Shown here: positions 32,091 to 57,466 of the stretch, in pieces
Numbering within the stretch: the first letter of the stretch is position 1
Layout: each line of letters starts with the position of its first letter
Source: Rhodocollybia butyracea
Lineage: Eukaryota > Basidiomycota > Agaricomycetes > Agaricales > Omphalotaceae
Reading direction: 5' to 3'
Length of the DNA stretch: 64,000 nt
NCBI GenBank assembly: GCA_015501585.1
Contig: JADNRY010000043.1
Location: forward strand, 124,001 to 188,000
Position numbers and translations under genes: made by a program
The notes under the pieces: generated by a model
Seen by the model: only the letters and a program-made list of their open reading frames with translations
Databases searched by the model: none
Told to the model about the DNA's origin: nothing

Positions 32091-32092
32091 TC

Positions 32093-32110
32093 TGGAGCCC
32101 ACCGCGAGGG
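32093..32110 (+). promoter_or_regulatory. E2 candidate primer-binding site
   Basis: TGGAGCCCACCGCGAGGG begins two bases after the LTR and starts with TGG, the complement of a tRNA 3' CCA end. I could not name the tRNA, and beyond 18 bases it does not fit a standard T-arm. Confidence 0.55.
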
Positions 32111-32134
32111 GGTCAAAAGATTAAAATTCATTGA

Positions 32135-34534: not shown

Positions 34535-35709
34535 GGCGTTCAATGATTGGGACTCCTACTAATGTAAGTAGGAAGGCTGCACCAATGTCCCCTGAGAACA
34601 GACCTAATCAAGCAGCTAAGGTGAATAATGACATGAATTGGAGAACAAGAGAAAAAGTGGAATTCAAAGATATTGGATTTGATGAAGGAGTTGTACCTGA
34701 AAATCCATTTCTTAATGTTAGAGATGTATCAGAACTACCAATAAAAGGTGTATCAAGTAAAGAAAATCTAAGAAAAGAGGGACCAGCAGACTTGGATAAG
34801 TCAGAAAATGGTCCATTGTATAGCTTTGTTGCGCCAGTACAGAAACTGGGCACAGTCAATGAGTTAGTGAACAAAATACTTGATAGTGATATCTCTGTCA
34901 AGGCCAGTGACTTGTTGTCTGCAGCCAAACCTGTGAGAGAAGAATTGAAATTTAGAGTCACGCAACAAAGAGTGAACTCAGGAAATCAAGCAAAGTCAAC
35001 ACAAGTCAGAGCTCAACTGGAAACAGTGGAACTCAAGAGTGATGCTATAGATGTGCATTCACTTCCTAATGTGACTTGGCAGAAGAAAACTGAAATGACA
35101 AATAGTGGTGAACAAGTCTCAGCATTTGTAGTTGGAGATGTTGTACTACAATACCTAGAGACATTGGCCCCTGATGAAACACCTAAACAAGTTGTGGTAG
35201 CCAAAGACTCACAAAGTTTGAGATCAATCTATCCCCTCTTGAATGGAAGAATACATGTTGAGTGTTTAATAGATTCAGGATCACAGATTGTCTCTGTATC
35301 GCAGGACAAAGCTGAAAAGTCAGGTTTGATCTGGAATCCAGATATAGTAATTTACATGCAAAGTGCAAATAAAGCCTTAGAAAAATCATTGGGACTTGCA
35401 AGAAATGTACCGTTCATATTTGGAGACATGACAGTGCTACTACAAGTGCATGTGATCAAAGAACCTGCCTATGACTTGTTATTAGGGAGACCATTTGACA
35501 CACTGTTACAGACTCAAATACAGAACTTTACAGATGGTAGACAGACCGTCACTCTGACTGAACCAATGACAAACAGAAGGTTGACTATACCAACTTTTGC
35601 TAGAGGTACCGCAGCCATTTTGGCAAACTCATCTAAGTTGGAGCAGCCCACAGAAAATGTAACCCCTAAACCAGTAGCACAGGGTTTTCTAATAACCTCG
35701 AGGAATTGA
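34531..35709 (+). CDS. E2 aspartic protease reading frame
   Basis: ATG at 34531 overlaps the gag stop by the tetranucleotide ATGA, which suggests stop-and-restart translation. The 392-residue product has a long charged N-terminal part and a retropepsin-like segment with CLIDSGSQIVSVS (catalytic Asp in DSG near 35272) and the later flap/ILG-equivalent region AYDLLLGRPFDTL. It processes the Gag and Pol polyproteins. The frame ends at 35709, just after a GGGTTTT heptamer at 35682-35688 that would allow a -1 shift into pol. Confidence 0.85.
   Translation: MRRSMIGTPTNVSRKAAPMSPENRPNQAAKVNNDMNWRTREKVEFKDIGFDEGVVPENPFLNVRDVSELPIKGVSSKENLRKEGPADLDKSENGPLYSFVAPVQKLGTVNELVNKILDSDISVKASDLLSAAKPVREELKFRVTQQRVNSGNQAKSTQVRAQLETVELKSDAIDVHSLPNVTWQKKTEMTNSGEQVSAFVVGDVVLQYLETLAPDETPKQVVVAKDSQSLRSIYPLLNGRIHVECLIDSGSQIVSVSQDKAEKSGLIWNPDIVIYMQSANKALEKSLGLARNVPFIFGDMTVLLQVHVIKEPAYDLLLGRPFDTLLQTQIQNFTDGRQTVTLTEPMTNRRLTIPTFARGTAAILANSSKLEQPTENVTPKPVAQGFLITSRN
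35682..35688 (+). promoter_or_regulatory. Candidate -1 frameshift heptamer (G GGT TTT)
   Basis: In the protease frame the bases read CAG GGT TTT, fitting the X XXY YYZ slippery consensus. A -1 slip enters exactly the frame (FSNNLEELIRKDQGE) that continues as pol, 21 bases before the protease stop. I did not find a convincing downstream stem by eye. Confidence 0.45.
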
Positions 35710-35909
35710 TTAGAAAAGATCAAGGAGAGGTTGCAGTGCTACTTCATGTAGACAAAGAAGGAGAAGTCTTGATAGACAGTTACTGTCTACCTGACAAAAA
35801 GAAAAAGTTTACCAAAAATGGACTTAGAAATGCATATCTACTGGCATCCTTGAATGCTTCTGCACATGATAAGGGGGCTCATTATTCACTGTCTTCTTAC
35901 CTCTCTGAT
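35683..35909 (+). pseudogene. pol: E2 pol, 5' segment before the first insert
   Basis: Open in the -1 frame relative to protease (LEELIRKDQGEVAVLLHVDKEG...). It covers the protease-RT linker. It is cut at about 35909 (tct gat) by the 4.6-kb Helentron-like insert, and the next codons of the gene are found at 40512. Confidence 0.82.
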
Positions 35910-38900: not shown

Positions 38901-40511
38901 CCTCATCCAACGCTGTCCCCCATCTTCTGAGTTGCTTTCAGTGACCCCGTGCCAGCATAGCATCACATTGTGATTTGTGAATAAACTTAGCCATCAAGAC
39001 AAACCAAAGACTACCCTCATCCAGTAGAAATGAGCCACTATAGATAAAAGTATTAAGTAAGCCTCCGAGTCTGAAGGGTAGTCAAGAAGTCAATTCAGCT
39101 GGTGAATTGTGAGTCTGTAACTAGAACTCACACCCTTCCAACCTTACCTTCAACATTACCAACTCGAATCATACTGTCTGTGTACTAGATTGAGAAGCTA
39201 GACCACGTCAAGTGAGCCGCCATAAGCAATTCATACACAAGGTGCGGCCACCAATTTTACTTGAGGCTATTTCTAGGATTTCCTCATGTCCTGAGTCTAA
39301 GTAATTCAAAGGTTGGTGAGTAAGTATAGCCACTGAGTCACTGCAGGATGTGAATCAACAGTCAGTTGTATTGAGACCGAGAAGGGTCTGCTCTCTTAAG
39401 TAATGATCCGCGATGCCTTGACCCCAGAAGTATGTCGTTCGTGATATAAGCGTGACTTATGAGAGTAAATACTTCGAGAATCGACCTGTATAACTTTGGT
39501 ATCTCTCCCTTGTTCTTTGCTTGACTAGGATCCACTACGGTACCACGAGGTCAAGCATTTGGCGGTTCTCTGCCACGCACAATCGCGTACAATCACAGGT
39601 TGCCAATTGCCACCTTGGGGTGGACGCTGTTTTTGGTGTCAACCTCCAGACTACATCCTTGTCTGAAGTTGTTATCCAGCAAAATCATAGGGTAAAATCA
39701 TAGGTCGCTGCCCCATTTCAACCTTTAAACGCTGGTGCTTCATCTGGTTTACCTTTACCATACGCTCTCACTAATGAGTCCATTAATCAAGTTGTGCCAG
39801 AACCCAAGAGAATTACTAGTACCCGGCTTTTTTCGTTGCTCAGTTTTCTTCTGTACAACCCCGTGTCTAACCTTTTCATTGTTTCTGCAGTGGTTTAGTC
39901 TCCCGGCGGTGCTGGTGCTGCTTCACCTCATCAAAGTATTTGTTTGAATTCATTTACGGTAAGTATGAGGACTATACTAACATTCTTTGCTTTCGCCAGA
40001 TCCCATTTCCCAGTGACACGGTCTTAATAGCAATTAAGTGTTCCACCTTGTCCCTCCCTCCTCCAGGCTGGCCGCCGGGACGGCGATTCATCAGAATTGA
40101 CTGAATCAACCATTGATCCTTGATCCTGAATTGATTTGAACCTGCCCATTCAGACTATAATGTTTAATCCCATGGAAGTGTCGACTAGTCACCAAGCACC
40201 TAACAAGCAGCCAAGGAAGTTGAAGTCCAAGTAGAGGGTAAGGCTCCCGGGACCCTGGTACCCTGGTGAAACCCAAGCATCGTGAAAGCACATGCTGTGG
40301 CGTCTCATGAGCACCACAGGCACGGCATGTATAGGAAGGAACTCAAGCCGATGACCGTATCAAATCGGGGTCAGAAGACTTGCCAAATGGATGAGCCGGC
40401 ATGGCGGCTTAACATCAGGTGGGAAAGAAATACCTGATCTGGCGGTTTTGGAAGAATCCAACACTCATTTGACACCTACAAGACCCTCCCTTCCCTTCGG
40501 TCAGAGTCGGG
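35910..40511 (-). mobile_element. Helentron/Helitron2-like non-autonomous insert
   Basis: A 4.6-kb insert in E2 pol; removing it rejoins the codons in frame, with only GAT shared at both edges (35907-35909, 40512-40514). Read on the minus strand the 5' end begins ATCCCCGACTCTGACC. The 3' end has the inverted copy AGTCGGGGAT followed by the hairpin TGCTGCGCAGCA (35919-35930) and a short tail. An inverted repeat next to a 3' subterminal hairpin is the layout described for Helitron2/Helentron elements. I see no Rep-helicase gene. Inside are an inverted-repeat element (36357-37988), exon-like plus-strand pieces at about 39700-39960, and otherwise no supported gene. A 34-bp copy of the 3' end lies at 61393-61426, and a relative of the 5' end near 59745-59775. 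Confidence 0.6.
36357..37988. mobile_element. Inverted-repeat element inside the Helentron-like insert
   Basis: The two ends are CGCATCAGCAGTTTCACAAC (left) and, read inward from the right, CGCATCAGCAATTTCACAAC, giving about 22 bp of terminal inverted repeat over 1632 bp. Subterminal CCACACCCTCCCAT-like words occur near both ends. I find no clear target duplication and no transposase. The interior 36600-37550 contains no frame I can identify. Confidence 0.6.
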
Positions 40512-40651
40512 GATATTTATTCTGTGAAAGCAAAAATTCCAGAACCTAATTTAAGTGCTAGCACAGTGGAAGTTGTGCATGCCCAGAATTTGAAATTGGC
40601 TAAATTATTTGATGTGAAAAGAACGAAAAATCCCATAGGGATACCAAAAAC
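40512..40651 (+). pseudogene. pol: E2 pol, middle segment between the two inserts
   Basis: 140 bp of uninterrupted coding (IYSVKAKIPEPNLSAS..., ending GIPK). It starts in frame with the codon left at 35909 and ends in the AAAC target duplication of the CMC element, after which pol resumes at 50637. It proves that the two inserts are independent events. Confidence 0.85.
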
Positions 40652-40671
40652 CACTACGGGAAGGAAAAACA

Positions 40672-41200
40672 ATTGATTTGATTGTCCAAAACACAATCTA
40701 AATGATTGTCTTGCACTCATATTGATTGTCTGAACCATTCTTACTGATTGTCCAGTTTAATCAAAGAGATTGTCTTATACCTTTATATTGATTGTTTGAA
40801 CCAATCTTAATGATTGTCCAGTCTACTCAAAAGGATTGTCTTATACCTTTATCTTGATTGTTTGAACCAATCTTAATGATTGTCGAAATCACTCTTATAG
40901 GTTGTCTGAACTACTTTCAATGATTGTCCTAGCCTTTCAATATGATAGTCTGAAGCACTCTATATAGCAGTTCTACACTATCTAAATGATTGTAAAAAAC
41001 ACTCTAAATGATAGCATGAAACACTCAAATTGACTGTTTAGGACACTCAAAATGATTGTTTTTGGAAATGGGTCACAGTGTCTTGAGACAATCATTTGGA
41101 TTGTTCAGCAATCACAGTGAGTGTTTGAAACAATCATTTGAACTGCCTTGGGCAATCATCTTGACTGTATACAACAATCACTTGGAGTGTCTTACACAAT
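40672..41200. repeat. Left subterminal repeats of the CMC element
   Basis: About 13 copies of an ATGATTGTC-like word (ATTGATTGTCTGAACC, AATGATTGTCCAG and variants) spaced 20-50 bp apart, mostly in one orientation, then complementary GACAATCA forms. Dense subterminal repeats are typical transposase-binding regions in CACTA-type elements. Confidence 0.8.
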
Positions 41201-43250
41201 GGTTTTCAACTGCTTCTGAAGGGTCTTGCAAAGTAATAAAGGGATATTTACAAATTACTACATGTCAACCACTACTACGTATCCCCAATTCCCTCTAAGC
41301 AAAGTTTCTTTGGTGTTACGCCAAAATACTTACCAGTGCAGCGAATGTTTGTCCTCAATTGAGTAACAATTGGTCAAAGAAAAATGGGATATATAACGAC
41401 TTACTCGATGTTTCGGTTCCCTGTAGGTAGTGAAAAAAGTTTACGTTATTCTATGTACTACAGGTAGAAACAGTGACGTTGTCAGTGGTCAGACCCTAGA
41501 CCACTAAATCAGTATAGAAGAACCGTGGATGAGAAGCGTGAAGTACTTACTGCTGAACGAGCACTTGCGCAACAATGATTGTCGGTCAGGCCTCAAAGGG
41601 GTAAATCATTGGCAACGAATGCGTGAGAAGCGCAACTTACGCCTGGGCTCACCGCACATTACTTGCCGTGGCATTTCCCTGCCTGTCACGCATAGAGGCT
41701 GGAGTTGAGCTGGGGGACCAGGGGCGACTGTTGGGACTCGAGCGGCTGGCACTATGTCAAGACAATCCAACCGCGAGCAAGTTTGCCAGAGGAACAAAAG
41801 AGACAGGGGAGCAAGAGAAGGGAGAGGAAGAGGATGTGAAGCGGGCGGGCGTGCACAACTGCGGGGTTTGAGGGCGAGCAATGTTCTGACCACGCAGCTG
41901 ATGTCAACGGTGGGTCCCTTGCCGAACGGACATCGCGGTTAGTTAAAGCTGCAATGTAAAAGAGAGATATGGGGAACTTACTCAAAAATCTGGTCGATGC
42001 ATCACACTATGGTGGCTCGGTATTAAAAGGAACAATTACGCTGGCCTAGGTACATATGCCGTGGATCGAGGGGATGACACCAAGCTGCGTTTGAGGGCTG
42101 CGGTCCTGTACCGTCAACGCTTTATATGAATACGAATATTCCCTCCGTTCGGTTATCGCGTAGAAGCTTGAGCAGAAGTGACGGTGACGTTCCGAGAAAG
42201 GTAGTCAGCGTAATAATATCCATGGCGTCTAAACGAAAAAACTCACCTCCAAGCAACTCAACAGGATTAATACCCCAAATGGCCCTCTCGCCAATGGCTT
42301 CAATCTTGGACTCGTAGTGCGACACAACGATGGGAACTACATGTTTGTTGTAGGTAATTTTGACAAGAAGACGGCGCCCAAGAGGACGTCAAAGAGAGCT
42401 GAGCATTATGGCAAAATTTCGGGCTGTAAAGTCGAAGTCGTGTGATGAGACGGAGGAGATGAGTTCTATCATAGCATTAGACAACGTATTTCTGATATTA
42501 ATACATGCAGACGTACCTTTGATCAACGCCAATGCCGACAAATTCTTTGGTGCAAGTATCTCTAAACCTTGTACTTTTTGGTTGGACGTGTATGTGAAGC
42601 ACCGCATGGACACTTGAATAATAGTAAATATCCAACTATAACTTTAACAGGAGGCTTCGTCCAGGAACGGCGTGATTATAGACAAGAGGACATGATCGTA
42701 GTTGAAGAAGAGCCATAGTTACGTTGTGACGTGGCAACGTTGAAAATTGATGTGGCTGTGCTATTGCGCGGCCCGCGGCCCAGGAGCGTAGCGTTACTGA
42801 TACGGTATTTCATCGGTCTAGTGGCTCTTCTTCAGATATTACAGTATATACGAAAGAATTCTCTGGGACCGTTGATAGATAAGAATTTACTGACAGTACC
42901 GCCTGTCGACGCGTCGACGCGTTGGTAATATTGAGCTGACTCCGCTGAGCGCTTGGCGAAAATAGAGTCACGTTTCTTCAAGTCGGTTTGTTTTTCGTTT
43001 CGTTTTCTCTTCCTCAGCCTGCCTTTCCGCCGTTTCAATGCTCAAGAATGTTTGGAATGAAGCACTGGTTATCAAAGCTAGGGCCATCCACAGAACCAAA
43101 ACATAACCGCAGAAAATTACCAAGTCTTCAAGTTATAGTTCAAATCTTCGGAGACTCAACAGCCTGTTTCCTGCAATGTCTTCAACAACAGACAAGTTTT
43201 CAAGATGTATCAAGTTTCTTTGTTTCGGCAAGATTTCTCAAGCGATGGAC
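41201..43250. other. CMC interior, exon-like minus-strand pieces
   Basis: No gene is established. On the minus strand around 42228-42330 a coding-like stretch reads VPIVVSHYESKIEAIGERA and WGINPVELLG before a GTGAGT donor, with an in-frame lead-in back to about 42400. Other candidate exons (near 42530-42610 and 42060-42170) cannot be joined without a stop. I do not recognise the family; it may be a captured, decaying host gene. Confidence 0.35.
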
Positions 43251-43258
43251 ATACAAGC

Positions 43259-43975
43259 ATTGTACACGCGTAGAGAGCTTGTATGAGCGTCGTGCACGCG
43301 TGTAGAGCTCGTACAACCGTCGTACACGTGTACAGAGCTCGTGTAAGTGTCGTGCGCGCGCACAAAGCTTGTACAGGCGTACAGAGGTTGAACAAGCGCC
43401 GTGCACGCGTGCAGAGCTTGTAAAAAGCTTGTACCAACGTGCAGAGCAGGTGCACGCGTATAGAGCTTGAACAAGCGTCGTACACGTGTACAGCGCTCGT
43501 AAAAGCGTCGTACACGTGTACAGCGCTCGTAAAAGCGTCGTGCACGCGTTCAGAGCTCGTACAGGCGTCTTACACGTGTACAGAGCTGGTACAAGCGTTG
43601 TACACGTGTACGGTGCTTGTATGAGCGTCGTGCACGCGTGTAGAGCTCGTACAAGCGTTGTACGCGTGTACAGCACTTGTAAAAGCGTCGTGCACGCGTG
43701 TAGAGCCTGTACAAGCATCCTACGCGTGTACAGCACTTGTAAAAGCGTCGTGCACGCGTGTAGAGCCTGTACAAGCATCTTGCACGCGTTGTACACGCAT
43801 GCAGAGCTCATAAGCATTGTACACGCGTACAGAGCTTGTACAAGTGTTGTGTGCACGCACAAAGCTTGTACATGCTTTGTATGCGTGCACGACGCTTGTA
43901 CAAGCTCTGCACGTGTGCACATCGCCTGTACATGCTCTGTATGGATGTAAAATGCCTATACAAGCATGGTATGCC
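43259..43975. repeat. ~30-bp minisatellite with palindromic cores
   Basis: About 24 units of roughly 30 bp combining AGAGCTCGTACAAGCGT-like and GTACACGTGTAC or GCACGCGTGC blocks. The cores are self-complementary, so frames on both strands are long and open (a 240-codon frame on the minus strand at 43200-43922). These are repeat artefacts, not genes. After 43975 a 500-bp plus-strand open stretch without known motifs runs to about 44491. Confidence 0.8.
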
Positions 43976-44516
43976 TTGACAGTGTTTACAAAGAGCTATA
44001 CAAACAATACCCACATACTTATTCCAAGCTTCTATTACATGCTGTACAATTTATGGGATACTGTGCAAGCACTAGCCTGTATACTAAATGTTTGTCCAGT
44101 ACTTGTATTTTCACGTTGTACAAGCACTGAAAATGCACACAGTTCCAGTGCTTTCTATAGTCCTACTTCTTCAGAGTCATCCCTCCTTCCAGACCCCAAT
44201 ACATCCAAAGCTACAGCTGTAATCAAAGCCTTTGTTGTTGATAGACTAGGAAACACGTTTTACTACTACATAGAAAGGAATCAGACTGGATATCATCTCC
44301 AGGATATGCCACTTTGGCACCCAAAAACCAGGAACATTCCTGGTTTTTTTTTTTTTGGTAATGATGGAATAAAAATTCAGTCACATCACAGTCCCTGGAT
44401 TTCTACTCAGAGCCCTCTTAAAGCTCCCATTAGTTTACAACAGTTGTGTTATGCTAATGGGCCCTTGAATTATCCATGTTTGTTGAATTAGTTTTAAGTT
44501 GGGGCCTTATACTCAG

Positions 44517-44750
44517 GTTAACTCAAGTTAACCTGAAGTTGGCTTATGTGCTCAAGTTAACAACTCAGTCACAGTTAACTCAAGTCAACCTGAAGTTGAG
44601 GCTTGAATAGGCTTTATACTCATGCCAACTCAGGTTAACTCAAGTCAACCTGAAGTTGGCATATGTACTCAAGTTAACTCAAGTCTCAGGTTAGCTCAAG
44701 TCAACCTGAAGTGAGGATAAATACTCAAGTCAACTCAAGTCAACTCAAGG
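44517..44750. repeat. Short tandem repeats of AACTCAAGT(T/C)AACCTGAAGTT
   Basis: Four to five irregular units of 50-60 bp built from AACTCAAGTTAACCTGAAGT and variants. They directly abut the truncated end of the copia integrase at about 44751. Confidence 0.75.
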
Positions 44751-46014
44751 ATTGTAGACTTTTCCTGATGGAGTATGCCATTCTCCGCCCAGTACTTGTC
44801 TATGGCCCCATTGTTCAACTCTCCGCCGCCATCTATGTGTATTGTCCTCAGTTTCTTCCCCGTCTGCTTCTCCGCCATTGTGCGGTACTTGTGTAAGCAT
44901 TTCACGCCCATCTCTTTGCATTTATTATTCAGGTAGAACAGTACTCAGAAGGAGGATCTTCCGTCTGTGCAGAGTAAGAGGTAGCTGCAAACTCCATGTG
45001 TCTGTGTTCTCGCAGGTCTGAATAGGTCTACATGCACACACATCAGGAAAAGCCGTTTTTGCCTAGGTGACCCCAGAGTGGCCTAAAGCAAACTAGGTGA
45101 CCTATGAATCCTATGGCATCCTAGGAATTTGGGCTTGTCCTTTGCCAGTCAAGGCTCTTGAGGATTCCCTAGGCAAGCCTAGGTTTGCCCAGGTTTGCCC
45201 AGGTGCTCCTGGGGAACACCTGGGGAACACCTGGGCAAACCTGGGCAAACCTAGGCTTGCCCTGGGTTTGCCTAGGATACCCTAGGGAGTCCTCAAGAGC
45301 CTTGACTGGCAAGGGACAAGCCCAAATTCCTAGGATGCCATAGGATTCATAGGTCACCTAGTTTGCTTTAGGCCACTCTGGGGTCACCTAGGCAAAAATG
45401 GCTTTTCCTGATGCACTGGAGTACTTCACTCTCATGCATGAGTACGGTTGTCTCTTTGCTGTTCCGTATAAGCAATCCTCGCACATACCAGTTGCATCGC
45501 TTTTGGTGATATTCAGTCCATTGACGAGGTTCCGGTTGGCCACACGTAGTATCCGTTGGATCAGTGCTACGTGCCCTAGTCTCCTGTGCCAGGTGAGTAT
45601 ATTGGTTGGCCTATCTCTCTTGCACAAGCAATTGACATCTGTTTTCCCTGACTCCAGTATCTCCACCTCATACATCTTTGCTTTGCCATACCCATGTATC
45701 ACTCCCTCCCCTGTGGGGGACTTCATGATCATTGCGCCGTCTCCCCAGGTGCCTCTCATTCTTTTACAATCGAGGGTTGACAGTGATATGAGGTTATGGG
45801 CAAACAATGGCGTGTGCTTTGCGCCCTGCCAGAGCTTCACTATTCTTTCGTCTCCATCTACACGCATGACAAATTGTACTGTCCCTACTCCAAGTATCTG
45901 GAATTTCCCCGCATCGCCAGATATGGCACTATTACCACCTTGGCCATGTACCTCAGTATATTCGATGAAGTCTGATTTATGCACCCAACAGTGCTCTGAT
46001 GTGCCATGAGTCAA
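44751..46014 (-). pseudogene. pol: Ty1/copia protease-integrase remnant
   Basis: On the minus strand the frame from 46014 shows HGTSEHCWVHKSDFIEYTEV, where the protease D-S-G/A active-site aspartate has been lost, then the GAG_pre-integrase motif WHRRLGHVALIQ...CEDCLYG (H-x-H, C-x2-C finger). A MITE (45042-45413) interrupts it. Beyond the MITE the integrase core continues with TIHIDGGGELNN...AENGILHQ, carrying the second catalytic Asp. The sequence stops at about 44751, so the catalytic Glu, RT and RNase H are missing. Integrase before RT is the copia order. Confidence 0.82.
45042..45413. mobile_element. Long-hairpin MITE in the copia remnant (family 3, copy 2)
   Basis: 372 bp, same termini and near-identical arms as 14153-14514, flanked again by CAC (45039-45041, 45414-45416). 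The identical 3-bp duplication in two unrelated hosts suggests a target preference. The halves form one long hairpin. Confidence 0.85.
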
Positions 46015-46265
46015 GAAAAGTCTGTGTTACGGGAGCGGGAGGCAAGTATAGGGATGTCGTTCCCTTGCATATGGTACAGTCTTTGAGGTCAACAGTCGCA
46101 TAGCTAGGTACATCTTTATCTACATCCTGGCTTTCCTCCTTTCGCTGACCTGTAGCCCTCAGAATGGGATGATATGGCTCAAGGAGTCCATGGCGTTTAC
46201 TGACAGGACATAGGTTGCCATGGGCGTGCTAGCATTGGGTTTGGTGTCCTCTGTTGTAATGACTT

Positions 46266-47075
46266 TTACACTTGGCCCGTTTTTCCTCTGTTCGCTTGTC
46301 CCTGTTTTGGCTTGTCCCTCCATGCCACCACCCTTCGCCCAGCATTTCCTATCCATGTGGCAAGTGAACGCAGGTCTGTCTCTGGTGCGCTGTTGGTATG
46401 GGCCTTGACTTTCTTGTTCTCTTGTTCCTCTGCCAGTCTATCCTCTTCCTTCTGGAGCCAGAGGGTACAAAGGTACGTGAATGCATCTGCGCTTGATGTT
46501 CCTGAGACTGTGCAAATGTCTCGCTTCCAATTGCTGGGCATGGATGAGATGAGGATGAGACAGAACTGTGGGTCAGGGATACTTCCTCCGAGGTCATGTA
46601 CCTTTTTCAGGAGGTTTTGCATTTTCTTTTTGTGGTCCTCCATGGTCTGTTTGGACAGGTTGAATCTCTGGGAGCGAAGCGCAGTATCAGCAAGGTGAAT
46701 GTGCTGCTCATCTTTCTTTTCAAATTGTTTAATGAGATTTTTCCAGATTTCAGATGCTCTCTTTGTCTTGTCAATTCCCAGTCCTGTAGGGTCGACCACG
46801 TTTGATACAATGGCTCCAGCAACTAGCCTATCACGGGTTTCCCACTCCTCATATTGTGGGACTGGACTGAACAGTGGTGTCTGCTGTGATATGTAGATTG
46901 GGCCCAGGTAGGTAGCCATAGGGGTTGGTCTAGTGATAGTCCCATCAAGGTAGCCTGCCAAGCCTTTCGATTGAATAGCAAATAAGATTTCCCTTTTAAA
47001 AGGTCTCCAGTTTTCTTTGCCAACAAGCTGTTTCTCATCTGGGAGTCTCGGTATATTCAGTAGATTTCCTGACAT
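46266..47075 (-). pseudogene. gag: Ty1/copia gag remnant
   Basis: A 269-residue minus-strand frame from ATG 47075 has the copia Gag (UBN2-like) pattern: LVGKENWRPFKREI near the start, WETRDRLVAGAIVSNV, EIWKNLIKQFEKKD and FCLILISSMPSNW. It ends before an intact zinc knuckle; the knuckle remnant HMDRKCWAKGGG lies in another frame near 46350, so a frameshift and probably a small deletion occurred. No intervening stop lies within the 269 codons. Confidence 0.82.
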
Positions 47076-50000
47076 TTTTTGTGGTGGGTAATATACTTTT
47101 GATAATGTGTTTTCTCGATATTTGCTTTGTTAGAGCACAAGTCTCATAATCTGTTAAAGTACTTAAGATCAACTCACTTGTGTAGAAAGCAACTATATTA
47201 TATACCTGTAAAGGTAAGATCAACTGTACATATGTCAGTAAGCAGATAGATAAATATATGGAAACGATCTCACCTCAGTTGTGTAGAAAGCAACTGAGGG
47301 AGTCGTATACGCTGTCTACATGAAATACCAGCTGTATAGTATAAAGTAAGCACAGCATATACGGAATAGGGATGGTCAAAGCTGCGTATCTGAGTCCCGA
47401 TATGTACATATGGAGTAGACTCCAACAATACCATGCCAACTTGGAGACCACTACCACTCTACGCTCGCCAACAATTTGATGTATATGAGCTACACGCACA
47501 CTGTCAGACCATCCCTTCCTCCAAAACCTGACCATGAAATGTGTCTGCGGTGGGACCCAGCACACCTATTTTCCAAATACCAAAAAAACAAGGCAGTATG
47601 TGGCAAACAATTCGCAGAAAGGGCTACAGAACCAAATACACCAGCTAATATTATCCATCTCAAAGCTGTGCAAATGCACATTATGCTATAAGAAGCCATT
47701 ACTTCACAAATGCATATTCTTGGTGTCATTGCTGCTCTCTGTGCTCTGAGCAGCGAAACGGAAGCTGGAGGCAGAGCGCTGGCGAAAGACATCCAAGGCA
47801 TCGAGATTGTTCACGGAAAAAAGCAGGACGGTGGCTGGGTCCGTTCAGGTGTCCCTGTGGGTGCCAAAGTGACTCTCAAAGGCTCAGCAAGGTACAACCT
47901 CATTGCATGCCTTTTTACCACGTCTTTGTGAATTCCATGTCATTCCTATTGCAGCTCCAGTCAGCGGACCCAATGCCTATTTACCTGCATCGAGCAAAGC
48001 AGTAAAACCTAGCGATGTGACGGGTGTAGTCAGCATTGGTCTACCTCCAGAAGCAATGAGGTACTGGTCTTAGATTGAGATAAATCAGGATGTGTATCCA
48101 AGGATGTATGGTATGCATCTTTATTTTATCATGAACGCAGTCAGTGTGGGTGTGCAGAAGAGGCCAGAGCTTTGGTTAGTGGATTCCAGATCCCATCTCC
48201 ACAGAGGAGCTGAGGGTGGTGAGCTGAATGCAGCATGTCACACGGCAATCCCCAACTCCCCAGAGGACTTAAGTCTACATTAAGGTATATACAATAGAGA
48301 TAAGTAGACCGTTTTCAAGACTCAATGAAGTAACAAGAATTACCACACAATTGCCATTTATAAGAGTACCTGGCAATGTGCAAGTCTGGGGATATTGCTG
48401 GTACATAGAGCAGTAGTCAAGTGCCACAGGTTAAATGCCCAGCACATGCTCCGCACTGTGGCCGTCCATACATGGCTTAGGGGTACCGTGGTATGGGTCT
48501 GTGACCATATCATGGAAGGAAAGGGAGTGACTGATACGGTACGGTCACACTTCATCTTTCATGCTTAGAATCTCTCCCTTGATCTAGATCTCTCCAGTTT
48601 GATTGGTCTGCTTGAGTTCACTTGAGATTTGGATTGCCACCCGGTTGAGTTCAGCACTGTCAGGTGAGAATATTCCTGCACCTGCTTCAGGTTCTCCATT
48701 ACTGTTATTTTGACAGGATCCATTTGTGTATAATCTTATGGACCATGGTCTCACATTTTAAGAGATCTACAATGCAAAATTAGAGCTTAGGAGATGAAGG
48801 GAGTGCCCTTGAGGTGATCCAAGCTACAGGTCTAACCCCTTGTGAGTCAAAGTATTAGTAGAAATAACTCACTCACCCAGAGCCCCAGAGATCCAATAAT
48901 GCTTGACCTACATAGAAAATCATAACTGGAATTCTTTATTGACAGTGGGACTCACTGGCACATGAGAAGGTGAGTGCAGCGAGGACATCTTTCTAGTTTG
49001 CTACATCAATCTTCTGAGCAACAACAAAGTAAACACAATTTGGTAAGACACTTGAAGCATAGATACACACATAATAGTACGGCGCGATGCTACCCCGATC
49101 ACACAGAAGTTCAGTCCATGCAAGAGAATCACTCAGGTCACTAGAGTCAAACGTGCATTCGGCAGAAGTTCTCATGCATGACTCCCAAAACTAGGCGAGG
49201 CAAATGGTTTAGCTTTATGCAGTAGCCTTCCAATGGTTTCGTTCAGTGTGTCCTGGTTGGGCGTGGCTTGAGCAATGTTCACGATGAAGAAGATGTGATA
49301 TAGTGGGATGAAGGCCAAGTAGCAATGGACTAGAAAAACAGTTGTATTCTCTTGTCCCTTTACTGTATATACTTACATTACAGATCACTCTGTACACAAG
49401 AAACATTATCACTTCAGTTTAATCTCTTTCACACAACTTTCCTCTTCATTCTTTACCTCTTTTTTCGATCCTTTCTTCCCACACCTCCGGACACGACCAC
49501 ACAACAACTTCAGCAAACTGGGAATGGCTATCAGTGATTTTGGCACATCAAAAATCATTGGTAGCCATTATTACAAATTCAACCAGCTTTACTGGTCAAT
49601 GTTTCACGCATCAATGCACCTTACCAGCTCAAAATACATTTTTGCAGGACCCTCAGCATGCCCTCTGTCGATTCCACTCTTCAGTTTGGCCACAGGAAGG
49701 CTGTAACCGTTTTAGCGGTTCAGTTATTCTCGGTATATTTTGTTCCTTAATTTTGATTTCTTTTGAGTCTCGCAGGATTCTTGCTTCACTTGATCACTTG
49801 CCAACATGTATCAATCCACCTTATCCACTCAAAATACATTTTTGGAGGACCCTTAGAATGTCCTCTTTCATTTTTGTATCTCAGTGTGAGCACGGATGGT
49901 CTGTAGCAGTCAGATAGGTTCAGTTTTATTTTGTTATACTCTGTATTCCCATTTTTTTATTCCAGTTTGATTTGTGTTCTCTGGCTCCATCATTTGAGAC

Positions 50001-50229
50001 ACTCCTTTTGTCCTCCCGAGTCCCTTCCCCTTAATGTACTTTGTTCCCCAGTACCATTCACATGCTCTACAAACATGCCTGTTAAATAGTGCTGCTCTAG
50101 TGGATTGTAAATATACCAACCAATATTAGAGACTACAGTAATGGCCTCTAGGCTCTTAGATCCTATTTTCACTAAGGAATAGATAGATTACTGTTAGTCT
50201 AGCCTGACATCAGTCAAATGGTTTCTTCC
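47076..50229. other. CMC interior, right half, no identified gene
   Basis: Upstream of the copia gag there is no clear LTR, although TGTGTAGAAAGCAACT occurs twice (47184, 47281). A possible two-exon plus-strand frame starts at 47710 (MHILGVIAALCAL...) with a GTACAA donor near 47894 and a TTGCAG acceptor at about 47955, but the family is unknown. Two diverged ~200-bp direct copies sharing CTCAAAATACATTTTTG lie at about 49608 and 49807. A minus-strand phrase near 50000-50170 (EQHYLTGMFVEHVNGTGEQ) looks coding, but I cannot name it. Confidence 0.35.
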
Positions 50230-50625
50230 AAAATGATGGTCTGGAACAACTGCTGCACTCCAAGTGATTGGCTCCAATAATAGGCACTCTAAATGACTGT
50301 CTTACTTTTGGACACTCTGAATGATTGTCTTAATTTTGGGCACTCAAATGATTGTTTGCTCAAGACAATCATTTTGATTGTGCATAATAGTAGGCAATCC
50401 AAATGATTGTCTTAAATTGGGCGCTCTAAATAATTGCTTGCTCAAGACAATCATTTTGATTGTCCTCAATAGTAGGCAATCCAAATGATTGTCTTAAATA
50501 GGGGGCATTCTAAATGATTGTTTGCTCAAGACAATCAAAATGAGTGTTTGGCAAAAAAACATCTAAATGATTGTTTTTTCGAAAAATGATTGTCTCAGAC
50601 AATCAAATTCATTGTTTTTTCTTCC
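50230..50625. repeat. Right subterminal repeats of the CMC element
   Basis: Repeated AATGATTGTCTTA, GACAATCATTTTGATTGT and GCAATCCAAATGATTGTC words, inverted relative to and matching those at 40672-41200, running up to the terminal inverted repeat. Confidence 0.8.
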
Positions 50626-50632
50626 CGTAGTG

Positions 50633-51983
50633 AAACATTCAATAACTTTGAAAATGGAAAAACAATAGAAAATCGAGAAAATTCAAAAATATTACCTAAT
50701 ATGTATTACATCAGTTATACCCCACTCTGCTCTTTCATTTCTAAGTTATCTCAGTCTGAGATAGGAGACTTGAAACCTACCAGATCTGATATTTATTATG
50801 AGCCTATGGCAGTGCTTGCATCCAGAAAGTATAAACCAGTAGCAAAGAAGATCAGACCAGTGCTTGGTGAACTTGACCAGAAATTCAGAATAGTAAGAGA
50901 TATCAAGGGTGATCCACTGAAGGATATGCCTAAGTTATCTCCGCAACCTCCAGAGTTTACATCTACTGGTAGGTACACTGGAGAAAGAAAGGAAATCATA
51001 GACAAGTTACATGAAGGAGACTTCCTATGGCCAGAAGAAAGAAAACTCATGCACCATTTCATGATGGTACAGGAGAAAGGTTTTGCATGGAATGATCAAG
51101 AAAGAGGAAAATTTCGGGAGGATTTCTTTCCCCCTGTTGACATACCTGTAATTCCACATACTCCATGGGTACAGAAAAATATTCCCATACCACCTGGAAC
51201 ATATGATGAGGTCTGTAAGGCTGTCAGAATTAAAATGGATGCTGGAGTATTTGAACCTTCAAATTCCTCCTATAGATCAAGATGGTTTGGAGTACTTAAG
51301 AAAGACGGAAAGACTATTAGATTGGTTCAAAGTCTTGAACCACTCAATCAAGTAACAATACAACATTCAGGTTTACCCCCTGCTACTGATGAATTAGCTG
51401 ATCAATTTGCCGGCTATTCATGTGGTGCAATATTAGACATGTATGTTGGATATGATGAAAGAACTTTGGCAGAGTCATCAAGGGACTTGACCACTTTCCA
51501 AACCCCCTTTGGTGCACTTAGATTAACAACGTTGCCCATGGGTTGGGCAAATTCAGTACCTATATTTCATGATGATGTCACTTACATGCTGAGAGATGAG
51601 ATTCCACATGTAACAAGACCTTATATTGATGATGTACCTATTAAGGGTCCACCAACACGATATGAACTAGCCAATGGCGGATATGAAGTAATTCCCGAAA
51701 ATCCCGGAATTCGCCGCTTTGTGTGGGAACATTTCCAGAATGTGAACAGAATTGTACAAAGAGTAAAATATTGTGGTGGCACATTCTCTGGCTATAAGGC
51801 AATTTTGTGTGCTTCAGAATTCAAAGTAGTTGGATATAGATGTACTTATGAAGGCAGAGTAGTAGACCCAGACTTAATGGGTGTCATTGATAGATGGGGA
51901 CCCTGCAAGAATATTTCAGATGTACGGAGCTTTTTAGGGACAGCCGGTCTCTGTCGGATGTTTGTAAAGAACTATGCAAAAAA
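50633..51983 (+). pseudogene. pol: E2 pol, reverse transcriptase segment
   Basis: Resumes the pol frame right after the CMC element (AAAC duplication, then TTCAATAAC). Motifs in order: FLWPEERKLMHHFM, PHTPWVQKNIPIPPG, YRSRWFGVLKKDGKTIR, LPPATDELADQFAG, FQTPFGALRLTTLPMGW, and the catalytic YIDDVPIKGP near 51625. The thumb follows with NVNRIVQRVKYCGGTFSG and SFLGTAGLCRMFVKNYA. The enzyme copies the element RNA into DNA. The frame closes at 51999, because the A run at 51978-51983 has one base too many for continuity with the next segment. Confidence 0.92.
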
Positions 51984-54370
51984 TTGCGGAACCCATTAAT
52001 AACCTTAGAAAGGACAATGTACCATTCTTTTGGGGACCAAGAGAACAGAAAGCCATGGATGACTTGAAGCAAGCAATCAAAGAGTCACCCGCACTTAGAA
52101 AATTACAGTATGACAATAACATGCCAGTGATTTTGTCTGTAGACAGCTCATTCAAAGGCGTGGGATTTTATATCTGTCAGCAAGATGAGGAGAATGCAAG
52201 AAAGAGACATTATGCACGATTTGGGTCAATTACTTACAATGACCGAGAGGCGAGATTCTCACAGCCCAAAAGAGAGTTATATGGCTTATACAGAGCTTTA
52301 CAAGCCTGTAAGTATTGGCTATTTGGGATAAGGAATTTGATTATTGAAGTTGATGCAAAGTACATTAAGGGCATGCTTCAACACCCTGATGAAGTCCCAA
52401 ATGCAGCTATAAATAGATGGATTGAACAGATTTTGATGTTCCATTTTGAACTTAAGCATATACCAGGAAAGAAGCATGGATCAGATGGATTATCAAGAAG
52501 AGATGAGCAACCAGGAGATGAAGTGTATTTCAATCCAGAAGCAGAATTCCAGGAGGAAGGACACTCATTTTCAGTTACTTTTGAGAATGGTATAGACACT
52601 ACCATACCATTTGAAGAATTCAAAGACAAGATAGACACTAGGACAGGCTATAGTCAGGAAGTTGCAGAGTCTGTACAAGACTTTGTGCAAACTGTACAGC
52701 AAGCCAGTGCTCAAGAGGAAATTTTACGGGCAAAATTAGTTCAAGAATTTCCAGCTAATGCACCATTCTTGGCTAGTCTGCCTCAGATTATAAAGCCTCA
52801 GCACTTTGTAAGTGAGGAGAGATATGAAGAAGTACATAGAACAGTGAAGGGAAAAGAACAAGACAATAGACTTCTACTAGTGCGGAAGTGGCTGAAGAAT
52901 CCAAAATGGAGACCAGAACACATGACTGATGGTCAATATTTGAACTTCAAACAATTTGCACGGCAGTTTCATGTCCAAAATGACAAGTTGTATAGAAGAG
53001 ACATTGAAGGCAAACATAAACTAGTAGTTGGTAAGGAGCACCGAATGTCTATGATGAAGGCCGCACATGATGGCCTTGGTCACAAAGGTGTTTATGCAAC
53101 TAAAACCTTACTTACTGAGCATTTTTGGTGGCCAGAAATAGATAGAGATGCAAACTGGTATGTGAAGACATGTCACTTGTGTCAACAACGTTTGAAGGAT
53201 CACATTAGAACTCCACCAAAGTTAACAGCTACACCTTCTATTTTTCAAGTACTTCATGCTGATACCATGCACATGCCAATGTCAAATCGGAAGAAGTATT
53301 TTGTACATGGACGGTGCCATGTAACAAGTTGGATGGAAGGGAGGGCATTGCAGAAAGAAACAGCAAAAGCTATTGGTGAATGGATTTTTGACGAGATTAT
53401 ATGTAGATGGGGATGCCTTGCTGTGATCTACACAGACAATGGAACTCCATTCCTCAAAGCTATTAAGTACATTGAAGAACGGTATGGAATTAAAGGCATT
53501 CAGATTGCACCATACCGCTCACAAGCAAATGGAAAGATTGAAAGGCCACATTGGGATGTACGCCAAGCCCTATTCAAGGCCGCAAATGGAGTACAATCTC
53601 GATGGTCATATTATGTCCCCGAAGTAATGTGGGCTGACAGAATAACAGTCAGAAAAAGACTTGGATGCTCTCCATTCTTTGCTCTAACAGGTGCACATCC
53701 TGTTTTACCATTTGATATAATGCAAGCTACTTGGTTAATGCAAATACCAGGTCATGTCCTGAGTACAACAGAATTGATTGGACTTAGAGCAAGAGCACTT
53801 GCATTACACTCAGATAGAGTCAAGGAAATAATGGAACTCATAGATGAGAAGAAGCGCAAGGATACACTGAGGTATGAGCACATGCACAGACATACAATCA
53901 GGAATTTTGACTTCAAGCCTGGAGAACTTGTATTGATCCGTAATACACGAGTAGAGAATTCCTTGAATGCAAAAATGCTTCCCAGATGGATGGGACCTTG
54001 TATTATCATAAGAAGAACTGAAGGAGGGTCATATGTAATAGCTGAAATGGATGGTGCAGTATTTCAGAACAAGATATCACCATTTCGAGTTAGGCCATAC
54101 AATGCCCGCCATAGAATAAGACTTCCACAACAACTACCGCTACTTACAGGAATATCAATGGAGGCCTTAGAGAAAATTGCTAATGGGCCAGAGCCCAATG
54201 ATAATGAACCTATTGATATGGAAATTGCACACATTGAAGAATTACCTGAAATTGAATATGAAAATGACAACTCTGTCACAGAACCCAGAATCCGAGGTGA
54301 ACTCAGTGAAGATTTGGACTTGAACTGGGAAGAACAATTCAGTGATGACGACGATTCTGGTGCCCCATAA
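51974..54370 (+). CDS. pol: E2 pol, RNase H and integrase segment
   Basis: In the +1 frame relative to RT, a 798-codon open frame follows the A-run. RNase H: ILSVDSSFKGVGFY, KRELYGLYRALQACKYW, IEVDAKYIKG. Integrase zinc finger: HDGLGHKGVYATK and CHLCQQR (H-H-C-C). Catalytic core D-D-E: LHADTMHMP, IYTDNGTPF and NGKIERPHWD. A C-terminal GPCIIIRR-like segment is followed by an acidic tail. Integrase inserts the cDNA into the host genome. The only break with RT is one extra A, which could be a true lesion, a polymorphism or a sequencing error. The stop TAA at 54368 lies 109 bp from the end of the convergent antisense gene. Confidence 0.92.
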   Translation: MQKIAEPINNLRKDNVPFFWGPREQKAMDDLKQAIKESPALRKLQYDNNMPVILSVDSSFKGVGFYICQQDEENARKRHYARFGSITYNDREARFSQPKRELYGLYRALQACKYWLFGIRNLIIEVDAKYIKGMLQHPDEVPNAAINRWIEQILMFHFELKHIPGKKHGSDGLSRRDEQPGDEVYFNPEAEFQEEGHSFSVTFENGIDTTIPFEEFKDKIDTRTGYSQEVAESVQDFVQTVQQASAQEEILRAKLVQEFPANAPFLASLPQIIKPQHFVSEERYEEVHRTVKGKEQDNRLLLVRKWLKNPKWRPEHMTDGQYLNFKQFARQFHVQNDKLYRRDIEGKHKLVVGKEHRMSMMKAAHDGLGHKGVYATKTLLTEHFWWPEIDRDANWYVKTCHLCQQRLKDHIRTPPKLTATPSIFQVLHADTMHMPMSNRKKYFVHGRCHVTSWMEGRALQKETAKAIGEWIFDEIICRWGCLAVIYTDNGTPFLKAIKYIEERYGIKGIQIAPYRSQANGKIERPHWDVRQALFKAANGVQSRWSYYVPEVMWADRITVRKRLGCSPFFALTGAHPVLPFDIMQATWLMQIPGHVLSTTELIGLRARALALHSDRVKEIMELIDEKKRKDTLRYEHMHRHTIRNFDFKPGELVLIRNTRVENSLNAKMLPRWMGPCIIIRRTEGGSYVIAEMDGAVFQNKISPFRVRPYNARHRIRLPQQLPLLTGISMEALEKIANGPEPNDNEPIDMEIAHIEELPEIEYENDNSVTEPRIRGELSEDLDLNWEEQFSDDDDSGAP

Positions 54371-54479
54371 CGTCACAGACAATTGTTGAGACAGAGTACA
54401 AACATACAACCATATATATGAAAAGAAGGTCACAGTAGTTGGCACAAAGAATGACATAACATGTAAATAGATAGAACAT

Positions 54480-55944
54480 CTACTCAGAAGGATTTTCAGC
54501 TAAGTGCAAGTCCTTCAAGACCTGGACATGCTGGCACTGAATGATATCAAAATACTGTAGGAGATAATTGATACGGCTCATGGTAACATCCAACTCTGAT
54601 CTAAGGTCAGCCTCCTGCTTCACAAGAGCACGCTCAGACTTGGGAGAGATGGATATGTTGGAAACCAAACCATTAGCCTTCTCCAGAATAGTGGTGGAGA
54701 TATGACTAGAAGAAGAAGAAGCAGCCGCTATGAACAAATTTAGAATTCAGTACAATGGAATAAAGAGATTATGGATGACATACCGGCAATCTGAGCAGAA
54801 GAATTGGGGAATGCCAAGGTAGTACCCTCTGCAACCTTGATGTAGTCAGACCCAGTACCAGAGCGTTGGCGCTTCCTCTGAATTTCTTCAAATCCAGCTT
54901 TAGCATATGCAACAGCCTTGACATAGGAAGAGGAATGAAGGTCAAGGCCAGGTACTTCATGAAAGAAAAGATAGCGTACCTGGGCCTTGGTTGAATCAGT
55001 GCTCTAATAAAGACAAAGAAGGTTATTGAACTGAACAACTTAGAAAGAGTAGCACTTACAGTAATAGCAGGTTCCTTGCCCTTGGACTTAGAGAACTTAA
55101 TTCCAGTAGGAACGGCACCAGAGCCAACAGCAGGAGGAGCGGCCGGAGTCTCGAGAGACAATGTGGCACCAGGCATGGCCAAGTCCACAGACATCTGAGC
55201 AAATAGAAATAAGATGCCATGAAGTGCATCCACAAAATATGAAGCTATGACATACCATGTCAGTACCAGTCCCAAGATCTCCAAGTGCAGTAGAATCACC
55301 CATGGGAACATCATCATCGAGGAGAATAATATCCTCCTCCTCATCAGAAGATTCAACTACAGAAGGGGACTTCACTGCTTTTCCCTTACGAGCAGAGCGG
55401 CGGGGCTAGTATAAATAATGAACATATAGAAAGAATAATTGAACAGAATAAACAGACTTTAGGGCCTGGGGCTGGAGTATTGGCAATGGCCGCAGTATTG
55501 ACAGCAGTCACCAAGGGAGTGACAGGTTGAGCAGCAGATTGAGAGGCACGTTGTTCGTGTATCCACTTAGTAACCGACTTAATAGAGACATGGCAGGGAG
55601 GCATAATGAAAGAGTCCCCACGAGTCTCTGCACCCCTTGACAAGGCCTCCAACGCTTGCTTAGATTTAAAAATGGTGTTATGAAAGACAGAATCAGCAAG
55701 AAGCTGTGGTTTAAAGGCAAGGAGACGAGCCTAGAACAGAAACATATATGAATAATAGCAATAATAAAGACAAGATGCAAGACTTAACAGTAGCATCTCC
55801 CAAAGCAGTAGCCATGCTCAGAAGAGCGCCCCACTGGCCAGCTTTGCTGAGAGCAGGATACATAGTAGCAAAATAAAGAGAAGACTGATTAATGATGTCC
55901 TCCTTGACAGAGGTGTAATCAGCAGCAATAGTGGTGGAGGACAT
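54480..55944 (-). CDS. E2 antisense six-exon gene, 393-residue unknown protein
   Basis: Exons on the minus strand: 55944-55789, 55730-55458, 55405-55256, 55194-55060, 55003-54784 and 54727-54480. The introns are 52-61 nt with donors GTTAAG, GTCTGT, GTATGT, GTAAGT and GTATGT and acceptors TAG, TAG, CAG, TAG and TAG. The total coding length is 1182 nt, a multiple of three with a single terminal stop; the first four introns fall between codons. The protein has an Ala/Ser-rich helical N-terminus (MSSTTIAADYTSVKED), a basic PRRSARKGKAVKSP segment next to acidic SSDEEEDIILLDDD, a middle Pro/Ala linker, a KRQRSG basic patch, and a likely helical C-terminus (SERALVKQEADLRSELDV). I recognise no domain. 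It lies between pol and the 3' LTR, convergent with pol and 109 bp from it. Nuclear location is suggested by the basic stretches (inference). Confidence 0.8.
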
Positions 55945-56061
55945 GTTTGAGATGGAGTCAAGACAAAGTTGAGAGAGATAGATTGAGAGAGATAGACAGA
56001 ATGCTTGTTAAACGAGCTAGAACCGAAAATCGGATGAGAGAGAGTCGAAAATTTACTGCAG

Positions 56062-56069
56062 CTTTTATA
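56062..56069 (-). promoter_or_regulatory. TATA box of the E2 antisense gene
   Basis: Minus-strand TATAAAAG lies about 120 bp upstream of the ATG at 55944, followed by a CT-rich stretch (CTCTCTCTCAT, TCTATCTCTCTCAA) just before the start. This TATA-plus-CT layout is typical of fungal promoters. It lies outside the LTR, so the gene would have its own promoter. Confidence 0.65.
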
Positions 56070-56423
56070 CCAGCAAGAGTAAGAAGTGACGAAGTTGGTA
56101 AATGTTGCTAAGACCAAAATTGAAGTATGGTGAGAAGACAAAATATATTGTGCGCGCCACTGTGCATATGTACCGCACACAAAATTGCATGACTTAGTAA
56201 TGCAATTATCATTGATAAGACTTGATGTGTGAACGGAAAGACTTGAAAAGGTTTGATCCATATGGACAAGAAAGAATGTGAAAGTTGTTGATAAGAATTT
56301 CCATGTGATGCGGCAACAAGAATAAGAAATCTGATGAAGTCGATGTTGTGTATCCATTGTATAGTATCAGTTCCGTGCAGCCCCAAAACTATCAAGTTCA
56401 ATGAACTGAGGACAGTTCATATT

Positions 56424-56437
56424 AAGAAAAGGGGGGA
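56424..56437 (+). promoter_or_regulatory. E2 polypurine tract
   Basis: AAGAAAAGGGGGGA directly precedes the 3' LTR start (TGATACGACT at 56438), the expected primer for plus-strand synthesis. Confidence 0.8.
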
Positions 56438-57466
56438 TGATACGACTCATAATTATTTGGGCATAAACGCGCAATGTATGCGCGTTTTCGGCATCAAATC
56501 AGACTGCATTGAGCTCATGTGCTATACAAAGTATTCTAGAAATCCGCCGTTACCGCGCGGTATCACTAAAACACACGGATGTTAATTGTTGATGACATCA
56601 AAACTGAGTCTCGGCAACAGAACACAGTTGTAATCAATGATAGTACAAGAATACTGAAACCCACCACAAATAAAGACTAATACTCAGACTGTTGAAGCGA
56701 TCCTAAGATATCTTATTGCAACTAGAAGACTTACAAATAGATTTATAGAAGAAAGAACAAGTATCAACGTTAAACGGTCCAAGCGGGACTTCCCATCAGA
56801 AATTGATGTGAGGAGATTAATGTATCGCCGACCCCGAGGAGATTGATGTGAGGAGATTGATGTGAGGAGATTGATGTGCCGAGGTTCCGGGACCATTCCG
56901 AGATCATGCCGCGGCGTCCCGCAGATTTAAGACAGCGCGTGAAATAAATATTTCATGAGCTATTTATTGAATAACAAGAGCATATGTACTCCCGCACAGC
57001 TCGTATGGAGTATTTATGCTGTGATAATTGTACATGATCAGATTTAGAATATAAGGAGTGTCCCTACACGAAATGGAGGAAGCATTCTTACCCCCCACTT
57101 CTGGCTTTGGCTCACAGTCTCAGCTAGTAGTGTTCAGGTGCTTCTAGTGATTAGTTCTGAAAGACTAGACTTAGTAACAGAAAGACAGACAGTATTAAGC
57201 AATTAGACTTGTATTCAAGAAGAAGTAATAAAAGTAAAGCTATTAGGTGTCTCTCAAAGTAAAGTTATTAGGTCCAAAGAACAGAAAACACGCCCAAGTT
57301 CAATAGAACTTGTGAAGAAAATCTATTAAAGTTGATTGTACTTTGAATTATATATCTTTTTGTGTACCCCTCCGAACTTGTGCTTGATCCATAGTGTGTG
57401 TGTGTTGGTGTGTGTTGGACTTAGTCTTTCATTCACTTTCGTGTGCAGCCCCGAGTTAGCATATCA
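56438..57466 (+). repeat. E2 3' LTR
   Basis: 1029 bp. By direct comparison with the 5' LTR I find CGACCC/CGACTC near the start, CGCTGA/CGCCGA in the middle, and a third copy of the 14-bp unit GAGGAGATTGATGT; the rest appears identical. Confidence 0.93.

Follow-up and report, generated by a model that had tools for sequence, protein, structure and literature searches.

An old, intron-rich gene predicted on the antisense strand of a Ty3-type retrotransposon family in Rhodocollybia butyracea bears the mark of purifying selection

Why would a Ty3-type retrotransposon carry, on the strand opposite to its own gag-pol, a gene that has to be assembled from six exons? The question arises from a window of 64,000 nt of Rhodocollybia butyracea DNA (assembly GCA_015501585.1, contig JADNRY010000043.1, positions 124,001 to 188,000), which is the whole stretch analyzed here. 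A first-pass annotation of this DNA had joined six minus-strand exons into one frame, had suggested that a recently active element carried the gene intact, and had recognized no domain in its product.

In the window copy, six predicted minus-strand exons, running from 55944 to 54480, splice to an open 393-residue frame (Table 1); the uninterrupted frame claimed earlier was recovered when it was read anew. The gene occupies the interval between the end of pol (54370) and the start of the 3' LTR (56438), opposite the gag-pol strand. Its introns measure 58, 52, 61, 56, and 56 nt and are GT-AG in all five cases. Thus, the intron lengths of 52 to 61 nt given in the first-pass annotation stand, but its description of good borders does not extend to the donors of introns 1 and 2 (GTTAAG and GTCTGT), which are weak. 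With permissive splice rules (at most five introns, each of 48 to 66 nt), we searched for the longest frame that splicing can produce. This returned the 393-aa frame, a length that none of 300 dinucleotide shuffles reached (mean 98, maximum 247), and 66 for the sense strand; therefore, the frame is not a product of chance. Under a stricter donor rule, which leaves out the weak donor of intron 1, the longest frame was 299; the best of 100 shuffles reached 282, and the sense strand gave 55. The predicted core promoter lies, as had been stated, inside the element and outside the LTR. A TATA-like box is found upstream of the gene in all five subfamilies looked at, as TATAAAAG in the window, C680, and C25 (contigs of the same genome), as ATAAAAG in C1227, and as TATTTAAG in C476.

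Table 1. Window coordinates of the antisense gene and of its host element
Feature	Position	Strand	Basis or remark
Ty3-type LTR element, LTRs 31076-32090 and 56438-57466	31076..57466	+	LTR pair, ACGA target duplication, copy comparison
RNase H and integrase part of pol, 798 aa	51974..54370	+	Pfam RT_RNaseH_2, RT_RNaseH, Integrase_H2C2
Exon 1, start codon at 55944	55789..55944	-	spliced-frame reading
Exon 2	55458..55730	-	spliced-frame reading
Exon 3 (ends at 55300 in predicted isoform B)	55256..55405	-	spliced-frame reading
Exon 4 (begins at 55244 in predicted isoform B)	55060..55194	-	spliced-frame reading
Exon 5	54784..55003	-	spliced-frame reading
Exon 6, including stop codon	54480..54727	-	spliced-frame reading
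Predicted core promoter TATAAAAG	56062..56069	-	inside element, outside LTR
Peptide ASYFVDALHGILFLFAQ, coding in predicted isoform B	55195..55244	-	final 50 nt of intron 3; frame shared with exon 4
Exitron-like 63-nt GT...AG segment of exon 5, VRYLFFHEVPGLDLHSSSYVK	54917..54979	-	conserved as protein
Inverted repeat ATGAACTG-AGGA-CAGTTCAT, just before the polypurine tract	56401..56420		comparison of related elements

The LTRs of the host element differ at 2 of 1017 aligned sites and by one gap (98.4% identity counting the gap), so the earlier view that they are almost identical holds, and ACGA flanks the element on both sides. Comparison with other copies reveals two nested insertions, at ~35910-40511 (~4.6 kb) and ~40652-50632 (~10 kb), and because they split the window copy, its 5' LTR lies 24 kb from its 3' LTR. 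Its pol is in two overlapping frames; the pol match is in one open frame of 1254 to 1369 codons in C739, C972, C649, C680, C443, and C1346. The window element is therefore young but broken as a copy, and its antisense gene is intact. Five further close copies are present in the same genome. The LTR pairs of four close copies are 100, 99.9, 99.9, and 97.5% identical with gaps ignored, and those of C649 show no substitution over 1018 aligned sites. The idea that a recently active element carried the gene intact is thus borne out for the gene and, through C649, for the youth of the family, but not for the window copy itself, which is interrupted and has a broken pol.

Some observations concern the surroundings of these elements. 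The copies on C739 and C272 (L010 and L012) have the same 25 bases of 5' flank and different 3' flanks, which could reflect either recombination or insertion into a repeat. The window also contains a 1.69-kb inverted repeat (19192-20883 and 26386-28076, 99.8% identical), beside which lie ~1-kb repeats, 72 to 88% alike, at ~9.8-10.9, 22.1-24.8, 25.5-26.4, and 28.0-28.9 kb. Minus-strand frames at 45388-47075, in the larger nested insertion, presumably resemble Gag and protease/integrase parts of a Copia-type element.

A protein search of the contigs of the genome (E <= 0.01) returned at least 65 matches at 15 or more places. Among the matches listed, the antisense gene stands opposite an adjacent pol at 15 of 15 places, and at this threshold none of these 15 is a copy outside an element. 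The first-pass annotation had proposed looking for the frame in other copies. All six exons are open at 12 of the 15 places, namely the close copies in the window, C739, C972, C649, and C473 (five of six close copies) and the loci C680, C443, C90, C1346, C1049, C1227, and C476. As for the remainder, the gene has a frame shift near its end in C272, lacks its second half in C25, and runs off the contig in C1268. An artefact confined to one copy was rejected in view of the open frames at further loci.

The selection comparison among copies, also proposed earlier, points the same way. Of the 21 codons that differ among the five intact close copies, 16 do so by synonymous changes only and 5 by non-synonymous ones. 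Under neutrality, about three quarters would be expected to be non-synonymous, which gives a p value of 8e-7 that serves as a guide only because related copies share changes. The dN/dS ratio is 0 to 0.14 in eight of the ten pairs, and thus mostly far below 1; window versus C739 gives 0.63, on three changes, and one of the ten pairs has no synonymous change at all. In its codons, the predicted gene shows the mark of purifying selection. At greater distance, the window and C680 proteins are identical at 186 of 388 positions, with a pN/pS of 0.54 and synonymous sites near saturation, versus 678 of 796 positions and a pN/pS of 0.13 for pol. Therefore, the antisense protein is constrained yet fast-evolving.

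The gene models of the window, C680, C1227, and C476 have five introns each and a common exon order. Introns 1, 4, and 5 fall in an identical alignment column in all four models, with phases 0, 0, and 1. Intron 3 (phase 0) shares its column in three of the four and is seven columns off in C476, and intron 2 lies within two columns in a gap-rich stretch, with phase 0 in two models and 1 in the other two. The subfamilies bearing the gene have pol proteins that are 75 to 85% identical. Furthermore, C510, a sister lineage with pol only 44% identical, has an antisense gene at the corresponding place, with six exons, intron phases 0,0,0,0,1, introns of 58 to 107 nt, and extra sequence in exon 5. The family profile matches this gene with an E value of 1e-8 (single target), and hhalign gives a probability of 88% over 56 columns around LKF...VPG.D..S..Y. 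Judged from these alignments, the antisense gene is an old part of the element lineage and not an isolated capture.

These findings bear on two alternative explanations. A host gene or other mobile gene could have been captured and carried along as a passenger, and the multi-exon structure is typical of a cellular gene. However, its position opposite pol at all of the listed places, its age across subfamilies and the sister lineage, and the bias toward synonymous change count against a passenger, which we consider the least probable of the readings, and a highly improbable one; capture of a host gene was rejected, no free copy being among the places listed. Alternatively, the antisense RNA rather than the protein could matter, by pairing with genomic RNA and feeding silencing. 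Antisense transcripts over ~1.5 kb would complement the 3' part of the genomic RNA, and the idea has been discussed for plants (PMC7264820). Selection at the level of codons, the frames that stay open, and the shared introns argue against the RNA as the functional product, and we regard it as very unlikely.

Outside the genome, three protein searches yielded 15 relatives, ten from Lentinula (edodes, lateritia, detonsa, aff. detonsa, raphanica, and guzmanii), one from R. butyracea, and four of unnamed source. None of the 15 has a precomputed Pfam domain. The proteins from Lentinula (P0001-P0003, P0005-P0011) and R. butyracea (P0015) are clear homologues annotated only as hypothetical proteins. 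P0015 is BDP27DRAFT_1406386 (partial) of R. butyracea, Omphalotaceae, and its element context was observed at locus C476; the depositors' model has the same five introns and by eye equals our C476 model, save for a 21-residue segment and a missing C-terminus. A scan of viral contigs found no relative.

Two further observations come from sister elements. In C537 (L062, C537:86500-90500), of the sister clade, spliced-looking antisense frames follow TATAAAAG (reverse strand, ~1279-2910), with an acidic-hydrophobic and a basic stretch mid-protein. They have no detectable similarity to the antisense gene of the window element, and our count of homologues excludes them. In C510 (L063, C510:52800-56500), a CxxC...CxxC frame (reverse, ~380-560) lies on the LTR side of the element, perhaps outside it; it was dropped as a zinc cluster, since Pfam Zn_clus matched it only at E 1.4.

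The intron 3 of the first-pass annotation contains a conserved peptide, FVDALHGILFLF, that evolves like coding sequence. The counterpart of ASYFVDALHGILFLFAQ is APHFVDALHGILFLFTQ in C680 and APHYMDALYAICYLFTQ in C25, and the peptide is present in P0003, P0007, and P0014; it was not recognized in the C1227 and C476 subfamilies. Between the window and C680, it has 9 synonymous and 3 non-synonymous changes (ratio 0.10); of the two alternative frames, one gives 0.41 and the other has no synonymous change. C680 versus C25 gives 0.25 in frame versus 0.92 and 3.3, and window versus C25 fails to separate the frames, the peptide frame scoring 0.50 and the next frame 0.49. Among six close copies, three columns of intron 3 vary, all of them third positions that are synonymous in the peptide frame. 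The exon 3 tail, which is the alternative to the peptide, has a pN/pS of 1.55. If a 55-nt intron at 55299-55245 is removed instead, the result is isoform B, an open frame of 395 residues; the deposited models P0001 and P0002 follow isoform A (intron 55255-55195). Thus, the coding-like peptide predicts alternative splicing at intron 3 or else a predominance of isoform B; on these comparisons, intron 3 is probably one of two alternative introns.

The 63-nt segment of exon 5 starts with GT and ends with AG in all four subfamilies compared, with a pN/pS of 0.18 to 0.53, and a GT...AG stretch also stands at the equivalent site in C510. It is missing from eight protein models (P0001, P0002, P0003, P0005, P0006, P0009, P0010, and P0015) and kept in P0004, P0007, P0008, P0011, and P0014. 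The segment is therefore predicted to behave like an exitron.

What kind of protein would this gene make? That it lacks a known domain was upheld, as the window protein matches no Pfam family at E <= 1; P0011 and P0015 match nothing in Pfam, and P0001 only a sub-threshold coiled coil. A PDB sequence search gave a single chance row (E 0.92). AlphaFold models of the Lentinula proteins P0011 and P0003 have mean pLDDT values of 53.6 and 58.8, respectively. Both models are confident over the first 120 residues; for the C-terminal helix, this holds mainly for P0003. The models predict an N-terminal helical bundle, a disordered basic/acidic middle, and a long C-terminal helix. Foldseek found no match at E <= 0.001 for the P0011 model against PDB or for the P0003 model against viral models (best 0.04). 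Fold rows for STAT (coiled coil), a nucleoporin, and designed bundles were set aside as common helical arrangements.

The predicted helical bundle and long helix, together with the fast evolution of the protein relative to pol, would suit a cytoplasmic structural cofactor of the particle, such as a Gag-like or Gag-binding helical protein, or else a particle poison. Expression of such a cofactor would, however, be uncoupled from gag, and a capsid is absent among the listed fold matches, which in itself excludes nothing. We consider a role in the particle rather improbable. A nuclear location, on the other reading, is suggested by basic stretches spotted by eye. Regular expressions were used to score SUMO-interaction and nuclear-export motifs. 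A SUMO-interaction-like motif occurs in the window protein and in 9 of the 15 fetched proteins, and in none of the L019, L052, and L054 models. Such motifs are too weak or too common to be taken as more than possible leads.

Relatives that lack the gene offer a further line of evidence. In nine further contigs, pol identity is 74% or higher and the antisense gene has no match, and three of these (C600, C467, and C451) were checked; in all three, the gene is lost or deleted. No antisense gene was found in C600, and C467 and C451 keep only its beginning (C467 also the last codons), the two deletions being different. C600 and C451 have a long open pol frame. Loss of the gene without immediate loss of pol fits a trans-acting or regulatory gene and not an essential cis function. 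A ~6.4-kb element at C454:3600-10500 (L058) has LTRs ~84 to 86% like those of the window element, no pol or antisense match, and no stop-to-stop frame of 120 codons, and it is probably a non-autonomous relative without the antisense gene.

The main rival to a regulator is a positive replication factor, acting in nuclear export, import, or targeting of the genomic RNA or pre-integration complex. CERV of the Caenorhabditis elegans Ty3-like element Cer1 would be a precedent, being nuclear, made from a spliced mRNA, and needed for export of the genomic RNA (PMC10309623); the portion of that paper considered here does not describe it as antisense. In addition, VDALHGILF, a peptide of isoform B, agrees in the window and C680 with a loosely defined leucine-rich export pattern. 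However, this pattern is common and recurs many times elsewhere in these proteins, and the version in C25 fails it. The loss of the gene from relatives with a long open pol frame also argues against a factor needed for replication, and we hold this reading to be unlikely, though less so than the other rivals.

A short inverted repeat just before the polypurine tract was seen in every one of the 20 related elements or element parts examined (14 of the 15 gene-bearing places, three gene-less, two sister-lineage, and one non-autonomous element, L058, which keeps it twice). The first base of its loop is A or G. In the two sister elements, one outer G-C pair has become C-G, a paired change. Their form, CAACTGAGGACAGTTG, has 48 exact copies in the genome, and the reversed control has none; 19 of the 48 lie 2.0 to 3.7 kb downstream of a listed pol match, all on the pol strand. 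Five examples fold as a hairpin. The repeat could serve as an RNA signal close to the plus-strand primer, or as a binding site.

Taking these observations together, the reading that we favor, with a confidence just short of even, is that the antisense gene bears the mark of purifying selection and that its product works in trans, from within the nucleus, to regulate how the family is transcribed or how many copies it has, by analogy with plant antisense genes and HBZ. Its own promoter would drive the gene independently of the LTR. In the genomic RNA, these introns stand in antisense orientation and would stay unspliced, so that a gene rich in introns could come through reverse transcription whole. 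The protein would move into the nucleus and there lower sense expression or set its timing, and alternative use of intron 3 would decide whether the product includes a hydrophobic peptide. Between repression and activation, our guess, by the same analogy, would be repression. A trans-acting product would allow for a non-autonomous relative and for three pol-bearing relatives without the gene. A more far-reaching proposal is that the lineage is defined by an ancient, intron-rich, alternatively spliced antisense gene, whose nuclear protein would act on the inverted repeat; trans factor and cis site would together form a self-encoded switch that also governs non-autonomous relatives in which the site is retained and the gene is absent. 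We consider this improbable.

Five predicted introns that face away from the element RNA, in a gene kept down to 44% pol identity, give this family its particular interest. Reporters with an antisense intron are used to measure retrotransposition, and the window gene is their natural counterpart. A single genome offers predicted splice isoforms, a possible cis site, and gene-less and non-autonomous relatives, by which self-encoded brakes become testable. Besides, some hypothetical genes in mushroom annotations are element genes.

Among known systems, HBZ of HTLV-1 is likewise a protein encoded on the antisense strand of an LTR retroelement, and it is regulatory; in the sources considered, it is reported to damp or time sense expression. 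The HBZ transcript is spliced. The HBZ promoter is in the 3' LTR; for the gene described here, the sole TATA box looked at lies inside the element. HBZ is a bZIP protein, whereas Pfam finds no bZIP domain in the window protein, which may nonetheless act in a similar way. Antisense accessory genes of LTR retrotransposons are known, and the portions of the literature considered describe them as plain ORFs. Gene23 of maize Grande resembles the window gene in being antisense, in the 3' internal region, and under its own promoter (predicted in the window); it differs in being from a plant and in that its nuclear location is reported rather than inferred, and the two are likened by description. According to the part of PMC7264820 considered, plant antisense gene products such as that of gene23 are reported to be nuclear with their own promoter, and a regulatory function has been proposed. 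In Retand elements of plants, the antisense genes encode TRP28 (PF04195) proteins and are described as ORFs, the relevant part of PMC11963269 mentioning no introns; the window protein has no PF04195 match (Pfam, E <= 1). Boty/BcGypsy1 of Botrytis cinerea has an antisense gene, brtn (PMC7264820, PMC8365987). Like the window element, Boty is a fungal Ty3/Gypsy element with an extra gene that runs opposite to gag-pol and is drawn among those in the interval from pol to the 3' LTR; unlike it, Boty is from an ascomycete, introns of brtn go unmentioned in the parts of these sources considered, and the likeness is one of description, not of sequence.

As in the aORF-3R class of Vicient and Casacuberta, the window gene is antisense and situated between pol and the 3' LTR, and it is present and conserved in most copies, yet lost in the three gene-less relatives checked. 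A survey of the open-access literature, with most subscription papers outside its scope, found no spliced antisense gene in a basidiomycete element. Thus, an antisense accessory gene in this position is of a kind already known, and what appears to be new, judging from the genome sequence, are the six predicted exons, the predicted alternative splicing, and the age of the gene within Ty3 elements of mushrooms.
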